64,000 nucleotides of DNA, taken from the NCBI RefSeq assembly GCF_011299555.1, contig NZ_CP049857.1:1860001-1924000 (forward strand), written 5' to 3'. This DNA is from Dysgonomonas sp. HDW5A (GTDB taxonomy: Bacteria > Bacteroidota > Bacteroidia > Bacteroidales > Dysgonomonadaceae). The notes beneath the pieces are model-generated. The model was not told where the DNA came from. It searched no databases and saw nothing but the letters and a program-made list of their open reading frames with translations. The position numbers were made by a program, and so were the translations under genes. Shown piece after piece: positions 21,954 to 25,644 of the stretch; position 1 is the stretch's first letter, and the number at the start of each line of letters is the position of its first letter.

Positions 21954-22943
21954 TTATGAAACTTTAATTAAGTACTTTGTTTGAATATTATTAGCTTTCA
22001 TTTCAGCTAAATGCTTGGCGAGGTTATCGAATGTTTCGACTTTGTTATCCCTTATTCTGAGGGTTCCGCTCGCTATTTTATGGAGGAGTAATTCTCCTTG
22101 CTGCATCAGTTCTGATATCTGTTGAGGCGATCCGTATTTATGAAATGCCCCTAACGCTACTTCGTGTAGCGATATACAGGTGGTGAATGCAGGTAAAGGA
22201 GACTGCCCGACTCGATCTTGGATAGCTACCAAATGTCCGTAGTATCCGATTAGAGAAGCCATTCCTGTTGCATGCTCTCCACTTACAGTATCGATTATGG
22301 CTTCAAATGAATCTCCATTCAAATGATTCTTTATCGTTCTTTTCCAGTTATTATCTTTATAATCTATAGCTTGTATAACACCCATTTTGAGGAATTCAGC
22401 ATGGTGTTTCTCGCTTGCTGTAACATAGACTCGTGCATTGGCTTCGAGTAATAATTGAGTGAGGAAATATCCCACTGATCCGCCTGCACCGCTTACTAAA
22501 ACTTTTTTACCTGCTATATTTGGTATCTTTTGGAGAGCTTGCCAAGCTGTAAGTGATGGGCAGGGAAAAGACGCTGCTGCTGTATCACTCAATTTGTCGG
22601 GAACATACATAAGTGCATTCCCTGAAACAATTGTATGTGTACTGAAACTGCCGTCTTTCGAAAGATCGGTATGATAACATACTCTGCTGCCTATACGCAA
22701 GTGAGTCATGTTTCGTCCAACTTTGAGAATAACTCCCATTCCGTCAACGCCGGGAACTGAATCGGAACTCCATGCAGGATGTCCCCATTCTATTAATTTC
22801 CAGTCGACAGGATTTAGTCCTATTACACTGTTCTGAATAAGGACTTCGTTATCCCCAATTTCTCTTATCTCCTTTTCTTTGAGAATAAGATCAGTTGGTT
22901 CACCTTTCTTTTGCCAACACCAAAATTTAGCTTTTGTCTCCAT
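21954..22943 (-). CDS. Zinc-independent MDR-family oxidoreductase
   Basis: 329 residues of the medium-chain dehydrogenase/quinone oxidoreductase type: a GroES-like N-terminal domain (IGLNPVDWKLIEWG, PGVDGMGVI) and a Rossmann domain with VLVSGAGGSVGYFLTQL. The Cys ligands for structural zinc are missing, as in quinone oxidoreductase-like members. It would reduce a quinone or enone with NADPH. It is inserted between ilvD and ilvB with gaps of 12 and 13 bases, so it shares their transcript. A direct role in the pathway is not known. Confidence 0.8.
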   Translation of the reverse strand: METKAKFWCWQKKGEPTDLILKEKEIREIGDNEVLIQNSVIGLNPVDWKLIEWGHPAWSSDSVPGVDGMGVILKVGRNMTHLRIGSRVCYHTDLSKDGSFSTHTIVSGNALMYVPDKLSDTAAASFPCPSLTAWQALQKIPNIAGKKVLVSGAGGSVGYFLTQLLLEANARVYVTASEKHHAEFLKMGVIQAIDYKDNNWKRTIKNHLNGDSFEAIIDTVSGEHATGMASLIGYYGHLVAIQDRVGQSPLPAFTTCISLHEVALGAFHKYGSPQQISELMQQGELLLHKIASGTLRIRDNKVETFDNLAKHLAEMKANNIQTKYLIKVS

Positions 22944-22955
22944 CTTTCGGATGTT

Positions 22956-24785
22956 TTAGTCTATCAATCTGACCGCACCTAAATCAGCCGAACTTACCAT
23001 ACTTGCGTATGCTTTTAAGGCTTTAGATATATTTCTTACACGGTTGGGTTTGAATGCTTCATTGCCTTTAGCAAGTTCTTCTTGACGGCGTTTTTCTAAC
23101 TCAGCATCCGATACTTTTACATTGATAGATCGGTTGGGGATATCTATTTCTATAATATCACCATCTTTTATCAGACCGATTGCTCCGCCTGCTGCGGCTT
23201 CGGGTGATACGTGACCTATCGAAAGTCCTGAAGTACCTCCTGAAAAACGACCATCGGTAATCAAAGCACATTCTTTTCCTAAATGTTTTGATTTTATGTA
23301 TGAAGTAGGGTAGAGCATTTCCTGCATACCGGGACCTCCTTTTGGGCCTTCGTATGTGATAACTACTACGTCTCCTGCTTTAACTTTGTCTCTCAAAATT
23401 CCATCACAAGCTTCATCCTGAGAATGAAATACTTTGGCAGTGCCCGAAAATTTGAATATACTTTCGTCAACACCTGCAGTTTTAACCACACAACCATCTA
23501 AAGCGATGTTTCCTTTCAGAATAGCCAAGCCGCCATCTTTGGTATATGCATGCTCATAATCACGGATACATCCGTTTGCCCTGTCGCTATCAACTTCTTT
23601 ATACATGTTGGTTTGCGACCCCATTACTAAATTGGGTTTATTTCCGGGAGCCGATTTATAAAGCTCAAGAGCTTCAGCCGATGGATTTGCAGATGTTATA
23701 TCGTATTTGTCGATTGCTTGTTGAAGAGTAAGACCATCTACGCGAGGTAGAGAAGTATCTATTAAACTGGCTTTAGCCAATTCTCCCATGATACCTAATA
23801 TACCACCGGCTCTGTTTACATCCTGTATGTGGTATTTATCGGTATTGGGTGCTACTTTACAAAGACATGGAGTCTTTCTCGAAAGTTGGTCTATATCGGT
23901 CATTGTGAAGTCTACTTCAGCTTCGTGAGCTATTGCTAGTAAGTGAAGTATTGTATTGGTAGAACCTCCCATGGCTATATCCAAAGTCATTGAATTGAGG
24001 AAGGCTTGTTTTGTAGCTATTGTACGGGGAAGTACAGTGTCGTCACCATCTCGATAGTATTTGTAAGTGCTTGCAACAATCATTTTAGCTGCATCCTGAA
24101 ACAGTTTCAAGCGGTTTGCATGGGTGGCAAGAATAGTTCCGTTTCCGGGTAATGCCAAACCTATAGCTTCGTTCAAACAGTTCATTGAGTTTGCAGTAAA
24201 CATTCCTGAGCATGATCCGCAAGTGGGACAAGCGGCACGTTCGATAGCTGATACTTCTTTATCCGAAACATTGCTGTCTGCTGCTTTTATCATGGCATCT
24301 ATCAAGTCGAGATGTTTGTTATCTAGCTCTCCTGCCTCCATTGGACCTCCCGATACAAAAATGGTCGGGATATTCAATCGCATGGCTGCCATTAGCATTC
24401 CGGGAGTGATTTTGTCGCAGTTGCTTATACATACCATTGCATCCGCTTTGTGGGCATTTACCATGTATTCGATGCTGTCTGCAATCAAATCACGAGAAGG
24501 TAGGGAGTAAAGCATTCCATCGTGTCCCATTGCAATACCATCGTCAATGGCTATTGTATTGAATTCGGCTGCAAAGCAACCCAATGCTTCGATTTCCGCT
24601 TTTACTTGTTGACCTATATTATGTAGATGCATATGCCCGGGTACGAACTGAGTAAACGAGTTCACCACCGCAATGATTGGTTTACCCAACTGTTCCTCTT
24701 TCATACCGTTTGCTCTCCAAAGAGCTCTGGCTCCTGCCATTCTTCTGCCTTGTGTGCTGGTAGAACTTCTTAATTCTATTGCCAT
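22956..24785 (-). CDS. ilvD: Dihydroxy-acid dehydratase
   Basis: 609 residues. The enzyme dehydrates dihydroxyisovalerate and its homologue to the 2-oxo acids of Val and Ile synthesis, using an iron-sulfur cluster and Mg. Conserved cluster cysteines are visible in [13 protein letters not shown] and [18 protein letters not shown]. The C-terminal [20 protein letters not shown] block is complete. It is the first structural gene of the operon and stands 15 bases after the attenuator hairpin, so its transcription depends on escape from that terminator. Confidence 0.96.
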
Positions 24786-24800
24786 CTTGATAGTTTTTTG

Positions 24801-24835
24801 ATAAAAAAAACCTTTCTCATCTAATGAGAAAGGTT
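24801..24835 (-). terminator. Attenuator terminator in front of ilvD
   Basis: The minus strand reads AACCTTTCTCAT, a 3-base loop, ATGAGAAAGGTT, then eight T (overlapping the last stem bases). It is a perfect 12-base stem with a U-run located inside the leader of the operon, only 15 bases from the ilvD start. It is stem 3:4 of the attenuator. Confidence 0.88.
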
Positions 24836-24894
24836 TATATCTAGTGATTACATTTAGCTATTTTAGTACACGATTATCGTTATACATACCTTCC

Positions 24895-24957
24895 TCATTT
24901 ACTCTGTCCGACGAGCAGAATATCAAGAATGAGGACATGTAAAATACAATTTGACAT
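24895..24957 (-). CDS. ilvL: ilv operon leader peptide (20 aa)
   Basis: A 20-residue reading frame, MSNCILHVLILDILLVGQSK, of which ten residues are branched-chain (4 Ile... counted as I5, I10, I13; L6, L9, L11, L14, L15; V8, V16). Its stop codon lies in segment 2 of the attenuator. It starts about 17 bases after the expected transcription start. It is not expected to have a function beyond its translation. The symbol is given by analogy with the enterobacterial leader peptide. Confidence 0.82.
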   Translation of the reverse strand: MSNCILHVLILDILLVGQSK

Positions 24958-25056: not shown

Positions 25057-25644
25057 CTATTTACTCCAAAGTCTTACTCCCAAACGGAGTACAGGAGAAA
25101 AATCAATATTAGAAATATTATATTTAGTACCTTCAAAGTCTAAACTATGGTCTTTTCTGCAATAAATATGTAAGGCGGGTTGTATATAAAAATAACGTCC
25201 AATGAAGAACTGATAACCTACACCACCTCCAAGGTCAACAGTATGTATGTCTTTTTCTATTCTGGTACTTCTTTGTTGTATACTGAAAGTATGGAATTCG
25301 GCAAACCCGTAAAGCTCAAGATTCTTCCAAACGTTATATCCTAAAAAGATTCCGGGTGATGTTTTGTAAAAACGTTTAAAGTCATCAGAGTGATTATTTA
25401 TGCCTGCAGTTTCCGCATTATAGCTTCCTCCGTTTATTACGCTTGCACGTACTCTAAACTTATCGTATCTATATCCAATGGCGAAGTGATATCCTCCAGT
25501 AAAGAACATGGGAACAAGGCTTTCGACCTCAAAAGCTTGTTTTACCTCATAACTGCGAGGCTTTATTATTGTCGACTGATCTTGTGAAAACACCATGGTT
25601 GCTATGCTTACCAGCATCATTAAAGAGAATAATTTCTTTTTCAT
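25057..25644 (-). CDS. Small outer membrane beta-barrel protein
   Basis: 195 residues with a signal peptide (LFSLMMLVSIATMVFSQ). The mature protein alternates aromatic and polar residues (GGYHFAIGYRYDKFRV, VDLGGGVGYQFFIGRYFYI) and ends LRLGVRLWSK. It has the look of an 8-strand outer membrane barrel of the OmpW/porin-like kind found across Bacteroidetes. No specific family or ligand is recognised. It is read towards the ilv promoter, with 80 bases between it and the upstream Crp-family gene, so it may belong to that gene's unit. Confidence 0.65.
   Translation of the reverse strand: MKKKLFSLMMLVSIATMVFSQDQSTIIKPRSYEVKQAFEVESLVPMFFTGGYHFAIGYRYDKFRVRASVINGGSYNAETAGINNHSDDFKRFYKTSPGIFLGYNVWKNLELYGFAEFHTFSIQQRSTRIEKDIHTVDLGGGVGYQFFIGRYFYIQPALHIYCRKDHSLDFEGTKYNISNIDFSPVLRLGVRLWSK

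Follow-up and report, generated by a model that had tools for sequence, protein, structure and literature searches.

How the genes for branched-chain amino acid (BCAA) synthesis headed by ilvD are controlled in Dysgonomonas sp. HDW5A, and what part the short Ile/Leu/Val-rich reading frame in front of them takes in this, is the question raised by the locus. The window, i.e. the whole stretch of 64,000 nt that was analysed, belongs to a 4.3 Mb single-contig genome. The initial annotation had read the region as a leader-peptide attenuator for BCAA, and leader, terminator, antiterminator and promoter all proved to be conserved. With a probability of about 0.93, judged from sequence, the region serves the ilvD-ilvB-ilvN-ilvC cluster as a ribosome-mediated transcription attenuator that responds to BCAA, and the genes would very probably be switched off when Leu/Ile/Val are plentiful. 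The coordinates of all features are listed in Table 1.

Table 1 Features of the ilvD leader region and of the genes behind it (window positions)
Feature	Position	Strand	Sequence or detail	Basis
Promoter, Bacteroidetes primary-sigma type	TTG 25009-25007; box 24988-24981	minus	TTG + TAnnTTTG box TATCTTTG	sequence, perfect match
Leader ORF	24957..24895	minus	MSNCILHVLILDILLVGQSK; ATG 24957, UGA 24897-24895	sequence and alignment of 34 family leaders
Conserved strand 1	24941-24932	minus	UACAUG.CCU; codons 6-9, Leu-His-Val-Leu	RNAalifold on 34 sequences, pair counts
1:2 helix as drawn in the initial annotation	24935-24928 with 24899-24892	minus	UCCUCAUU with AAUGAGGA	sequence
Inner leader hairpin	24922-24917 with 24905-24900	minus	UAUUCU / AGAGUA	RNAalifold and pair counts
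Strand 2 (antiterminator 5' arm)	24883..24898	minus	AUGAGGAAGGUAUGUA	shuffles and pair counts
2:3 antiterminator	24898-24888 with 24834-24824	minus	AUGAGGAAGGU with ACCUUUCUCAU; one G-U	sequence
Strand 3	24824..24835	minus	AACCUUUCUCAU	common to antiterminator and terminator
3:4 terminator	24835-24824 with 24820-24809	minus	AACCUUUCUCAU with AUGAGAAAGGUU; perfect	sequence
Intrinsic terminator, strand 4 and U tract	24803..24820	minus	AUGAGAAAGGUU + U tract	sequence and pair counts
ilvD, dihydroxy-acid dehydratase, first structural gene	22956..24785	minus		TIGR00110 above cut-off, PF00920
ilvB, acetolactate synthase large subunit	20243..21940	minus		TIGR00118 above cut-off
ilvN/ilvH, acetolactate synthase small subunit	18489..19031	minus		TIGR00119 above cut-off
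ilvC, ketol-acid reductoisomerase	16623..17669	minus		TIGR00465 above cut-off

The leader comprises 20 codons, and the ten Ile/Leu/Val codons counted in the initial annotation can be read directly from the sequence. The I/L/V share is 0.49 in the 34 family leaders vs 0.24 in 35 window genes. Its UGA stop sits within strand 2, and the loop of the inner leader hairpin holds the codons CUC GUC. The intrinsic terminator (24835-24803) is placed between the leader ORF and the ilvD start at 24785; its tract of eight U (24810-24803) shares the first two residues with the arm of strand 4. The annotated 2:3 pairing of 11 bases with one G-U and the 3:4 pairing of 12 perfect bases followed by eight U are likewise present. 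The whole leader fold has a z-score of -4.3, none of 200 shuffles being as stable, and the 2:3 pairing is better than in all of 60 shuffles. The perfect 1:2 helix of eight bases is also found in the window as described, but was matched by 8 of 60 shuffles and is thus within chance.

The genes behind the leader follow the order ilvD, zinc-type alcohol dehydrogenase, ilvB, methyltransferase, small protein, ilvN, acyl-ACP thioesterase, ilvC. The non-ilv genes inside the cluster are located at 21954-22943 (zinc-type alcohol dehydrogenase), 19573-20241 (methyltransferase) and 17735-18466 (acyl-ACP thioesterase), and a tRNA-Met (CAT, 16395-16469) is encoded directly downstream of ilvC.

In the proposed mechanism, a ribosome would enter the 20-codon leader behind RNA polymerase. 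When Leu-, Ile- or Val-tRNA runs low, the ribosome would stall in the run of BCAA codons and leave strand 2 free, so that strands 2 and 3 pair and the polymerase reads into ilvD. If the tRNAs are charged, the ribosome would reach the UGA and cover strand 2, and the 3:4 terminator would form before ilvD. Leader, terminator, the conserved 2:3 and 3:4 pairings, promoter and gene cluster are seen in the sequence, and the switching with ribosome position is a calculated result. The mechanism would further require that the leader is translated, that ribosomes stall in it, that translation is coupled to transcription, that the cluster is cotranscribed and that amino acids affect the outcome.

The conservation of the pairings was counted on an alignment of 34 ilvD leaders of the family, which are related and not independent. 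The initial annotation had proposed to look for leader frame and stems in close relatives, and the frame as well as the 2:3 and 3:4 stems are kept there before ilvD. For 3:4, 93.9% of the cells are paired, four pairs are changed on both sides and 12 double-change cells occur. For 2:3, 95.5% of the cells are paired, compared with 41-58% when the strands are slid against each other; its covariation is weak (2 double-change cells, reached by 93 of 500 shuffles) because strand 3 is nearly invariant. Strand 2 begins at the UGA stop or one base before it in 32 of the 34 leaders. The inner leader hairpin is paired in 96.6% of the cells, with changes on both sides in two of its six pairs.

Among the relatives, the 1:2 helix of the initial annotation fares less well than the other stems: 80.4% of the cells are paired, and one C-G pair (C53-G104) is lost in 27 of the 34 leaders. 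An alternative 1:2 pairing, in which UACAUG.CCU pairs with AGGUAUGUA (24891-24883) around the inner hairpin, is paired in 95.9% of the cells and has five double-change cells; it was derived by RNAalifold from the same sequences, and its advantage over slid versions is therefore partly built in. A first finder for strand 1 picked varying partners and was uninformative; it was replaced by the pair counts on the alignment.

A promoter box at the right distance had also been annotated. The end of the box lies 23 nt from the leader ATG in the window, and an exact TAnnTTTG box together with TTG is found in all 34 family leaders, 21-25 nt upstream of the ATG. By chance, an exact TAnnTTTG box occurred in 63 of 820 shuffled stretches. 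The consensus is that of the Bacteroidetes primary sigma factor as quoted in a passage of PMC7366714.

The effect of the ribosome position was calculated with a folding model in which the RNA ends after strand 3 and the ribosome, counted from the first base of the A-site codon, masks 17 nt on the 5' side and 14 nt on the 3' side; the model describes equilibrium, not kinetics, and depends on the assumed footprint. For the window, the modelled probability of 2:3 is 0.95 without a ribosome and reaches about 1.0 when one of codons 2-16 occupies the A site; it is 0.84 at Gly17, 0.07 at Gln18 and 0.00 at the stop. The model thus predicts antitermination as long as the ribosome is on codons 1-17, and termination once it stands at codon 18 or beyond, up to the stop. 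The family means (n=34) are 0.85 without a ribosome, 0.99 with a stalled ribosome and 0.01 at the stop. With strand 2 free to vary, a switch is predicted in 80 of 82 leaders; in an earlier version with strand 2 tied to the stop codon, 10 of 33 other ilvD leaders and 2 of 15 leuA leaders failed to switch. The end of the BCAA run and the switch point are at most one codon apart in 64 of 82 leaders when the footprint extends to A+14, in 65 at A+16 and in 34 at A+12. At A+12, this holds for 4 of 34 family leaders, the run mostly ending two codons early. The leuA and trpB leaders of the same genome show only weak switches in this model.

These calculations bear on the exact classical plan of the initial annotation, according to which UCCUCAUU and AAUGAGGA pair in ribosome-free RNA and thereby bring about termination. 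The model instead predicts that RNA without a ribosome favours the antiterminator over a protector 1:2: 2:3 has a probability of 0.5 or more in 30 of the 34 family leaders, and the conserved alternative 1:2, too, loses to 2:3 at equilibrium. Together with the loss of C53-G104 in most relatives and the shuffle result, this makes the classical plan unlikely, even though its eight pairs are perfect in the window and a 1:2 helix, being made before strand 3, could win kinetically.

The distribution of such leaders was surveyed with a finder that requires eight or more I/L/V within some stretch of 12 leader residues and a terminator downstream. It was positive for 64 of 168 ilvD upstream regions, for none of 504 dinucleotide shuffles and for none of 241 upstream regions of other ORFs from the same loci. 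At a finder threshold of seven, a BCAA leader with terminator precedes ilvD in all 34 family loci from five genera (L082-L115). In a public scan of 80 named loci with phyla assigned from record titles, leader and terminator were found in 32 of 62 Bacteroidota loci versus 0 of 18 from other phyla. Of the 30 Bacteroidota ilvD loci without a leader according to the automatic finder, three (L001, L018, L023) are positive by eye, their leaders being beyond the finder limits. The Prevotellaceae locus L068 was a chance ORF and was left out of the codon counts for other ilvD leaders, the switch-model counts and the named-locus counts.

No leader was detected by the finder directly before ilvD in the remaining 54 ilvD loci of the family (L116-L169). 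In 15 of these, the upstream DNA was examined and ilvD lies behind genes of the leuA-leuC-leuD-cimA-leuB type, named from their N-termini and from similarity to L013. Where ilvD follows leuB, a BCAA leader with terminator stands before leuA in 14 of the 15 loci (12 by the finder; L174 and L176 by eye and RNA model); in the fifteenth, the contig starts about 200 nt before leuA and is too short. Where ilvD heads its own cluster, as in the window, leuA has a separate leader: the own-genome leuA (TIGR00973) is preceded by a second, Leu/Ile leader, MKLFTNILSSIILLWENLRVSSVA, at 3748254 on the minus strand. The attenuator thus keeps to the first gene of the operon, be it ilvD or leuA. A covariance model of the 34-leader alignment has matches at E<=0.01 in 118 of 393 genomes of the order, distributed over 76 of 206 genera. 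Among its best 30 match loci, 27 were inspected, and in 24 of them the match precedes ilvD or leuA and includes a BCAA leader (22 of 25 without two training loci).

In several lineages, two BCAA leader-plus-terminator units stand in series before one ilvD (L055, L061, L064 at about 2590-2935, L289 at 1525-1830 on the minus strand, and L280 at 1526-1822). In L061, MQFNSVIIISVIIRVLLDTIRG and a terminator are followed within about 20 nt by MLSFKVVIIVIIISIVIIRM... and another terminator. In the tandem loci of Marinifilaceae, the run of the second leader is made up of Ile and Val alone. Marinifilum and Labilibaculum are among the genera with such a tandem ilvD locus. In L280, the second unit has a hairpin recognised by eye and a poor U tract, and was missed by the finder. 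Paired matches of the covariance model were also obtained at G394:C101 and G314:C68.

The choice of control codons was compared with the expectation from genes of the same loci, using 30 of the 34 family leaders (four loci were too short). Observed versus expected counts in the family are 87 vs 14.4 for CUC, 59 vs 8.8 for GUC and 61 vs 24.2 for AUU. For 33 other ilvD leaders the values are 69 vs 26.1 (GUC), 91 vs 57.6 (AUU) and 25 vs 3.4 (CUA), and for 15 leuA leaders 16 vs 3.2 (GUC), 52 vs 19.5 (AUU) and 24 vs 2.7 (CUA). Locus by locus, GUC takes a larger share of the leader than of the genes in 29/29 family, 29/32 other ilvD and 12/15 leuA loci. The CUC bias is restricted to the family's ilvD leaders; elsewhere CUA is favoured, among the other ilvD loci in just 18 of 32. 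The loop codon at -6 is CUC in 31 and GUC in 3 of the 34 family leaders, that at -5 is GUC in 30 and CUC in 2, and the Gly codon beside them varies (GGU 12, GGA 7, GGC 6). Selection on codons rather than on pairing would be the simplest reading of the C at the third base of the loop codons. Attenuators of E. coli, too, are known for a bias in their control codons (PMC1183508).

A tRNA survey of the own genome, with 150 of 276 candidates scored, yielded Leu anticodons UAA, UAG, CAA and GAG, the Leu-GAG for CUC being a single gene. One Val tRNA was found among these 150 candidates, with anticodon UAC; no Val-GAC was seen, though the leaders prefer GUC, and with one tRNA locus giving no call this absence is not secure.

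Further candidate leader-peptide attenuators in the same genome match their operons: hisG is preceded by MTRQLHHHHLYFSSFGK (HHHH; L217, from 1209) and trpB by MNFQLTNTYWWWSLQLKKS (WWW; L218, from 97), each followed by a terminator-like hairpin and a T run. Since the leader peptide fits the operon in each case, with HHHH before hisG, WWW before trpB and Leu/Ile before leuA, the attenuator reading gains support. Run against 65 sources, the ilv-leader covariance model also gives weak matches to the own-genome His leader (33 bits) and Trp leader (27 bits). A widened motif pattern matched the ilvD leader alone on the own genome, the leuA, hisG and trpB leaders having been located via their genes.

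The terminator might just end the upstream gene, which lies on the same strand in the window (25644..25057), with the short ORF arising by chance or encoding a small hydrophobic protein of its own, given that 20 residues rich in I/L/V could make up a membrane peptide. This is very improbable. In the 30 family loci with long flanks (L082-L111), the closest large ORF upstream runs on the opposite strand in 8, there is none within 500 nt in 7, and in the rest it is of varied kind; the perfect promoter lies in between in all 34. A chance ORF or an independent protein is also at odds with the His and Trp leaders of this genome and with the observation that I/L/V content is kept between lineages and the peptide sequence is not. 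Still less credible is an RNA of the riboswitch or T-box kind, binding a ligand or a tRNA, in which the ORF is present by chance. Such an RNA would likewise account for a conserved and folded 5' region that has a terminator and an antiterminator and precedes biosynthetic genes, but frame, codon choice and position of the stop codon are conserved, none of which an aptamer needs, and the region scores below the gathering threshold of every Rfam family. The Rfam search of the whole window returned only a tRNA at gathering score; that of four loci, including the own trp, his and leu regions, returned no family and no T-box or riboswitch. The best sub-threshold match at the leader is rnk_leader (34 bits, the cut-off being 50), for which the terminator hairpin would be the simplest explanation.

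Beyond ribosome-mediated attenuation at this locus, a broader reading is put forward tentatively and with more doubt than belief: the leaders may share a common descent as a single Bacteroidales family of attenuator RNAs, which stays with the operon's first gene (ilvD or leuA) when genes are rearranged, was duplicated in tandem in several lineages, with units perhaps reading different amino acids, carries the stop in the antiterminator, is ON without translation and is shut only by a ribosome at the stop. If this reading is true, tight transcription-translation coupling must exist in Bacteroidota. More generally, ribosome-mediated attenuation needs a leading ribosome that keeps pace with RNA polymerase, so that working attenuators would be evidence of such coupling in a phylum that is not known to rely on Shine-Dalgarno initiation. 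The locus offers a concrete mechanism for the little-studied amino acid regulation of Bacteroidales at two operons, and sharp predictions, namely a default ON state without translation and a codon bias toward GUC/AUU and CUC or CUA.

The ilv and leu attenuators of E. coli and Salmonella combine a BCAA-rich leader peptide, alternative 2:3/3:4 stems, a U tract and biased control codons, and the locus resembles them in all of these as well as in its biosynthetic operon. It differs in the phylum, the promoter type, the non-Shine-Dalgarno type of initiation, the stop inside the antiterminator strand and a 1:2 that is weak in the model; the comparison is one of features, and a sequence relationship is not claimed. 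The Bacteroidetes/Chlorobi are reportedly named among the groups with candidate attenuators in the abstract of Vitreschak et al. 2004. Bacteroid-trp RNA, as its name also says, stands before trp genes, and Flavobacterium represents another class of the phylum. For E. coli and Salmonella, ilvGMEDA (ilvL), ilvBN (ivbL) and leu are listed as attenuated operons in PMC1183508. Bacteroid-trp (RF01692; Weinberg 2010) is listed as a cis-regulatory candidate in Bacteroidetes in a part of PMC2864571; the ilv leader shares this status and differs in that Bacteroid-trp concerns tryptophan. The RF01692 gathering score is reached neither by the ilv leader nor by the own-genome trp leader.

The initial annotation knew of no detailed experimental description of such an attenuator in this group. 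The novelty is smaller than this implies: leader-peptide attenuators had been inferred in the phylum before, for Flavobacterium psychrophilum, with transcriptome-supported 5' regions before amino acid operons, of which the pheA and hisG elements are named as conserved in its family (excerpts of PMC9723704). These agree with the present case in phylum and inferred mechanism and differ in that ilvD and leuA are not named in those excerpts; a description of an ilvD or leuA attenuator in Bacteroidales was not found in the open-licence literature. A published account of B. thetaiotaomicron mentions long 5' UTRs in which short ORFs resemble leader peptides. Actinobacterial ilvB leaders also carry an I/L/V leader with a terminator before acetolactate genes (parts of PMC1262725 and PMC11857589); there, unlike in the window, the leader ORF overlaps the terminator (same part of PMC1262725). 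Codon substitution in the Streptomyces ilvB leader had no effect, as stated in that part of PMC1262725, which is a warning for all sequence-only attenuator claims. The tandem ilvD units have a counterpart in the two leader ORFs in series of the Salmonella mgtCBR tandem attenuators (part of PMC3641672), which differ in not being amino acid biosynthetic. The ilv leader is thus a well-supported further case of ribosome-mediated attenuation, a known mechanism already inferred in Bacteroidetes; its wide distribution, its following of the operon's first gene, the stop within the antiterminator and the tandem copies are the newer elements.
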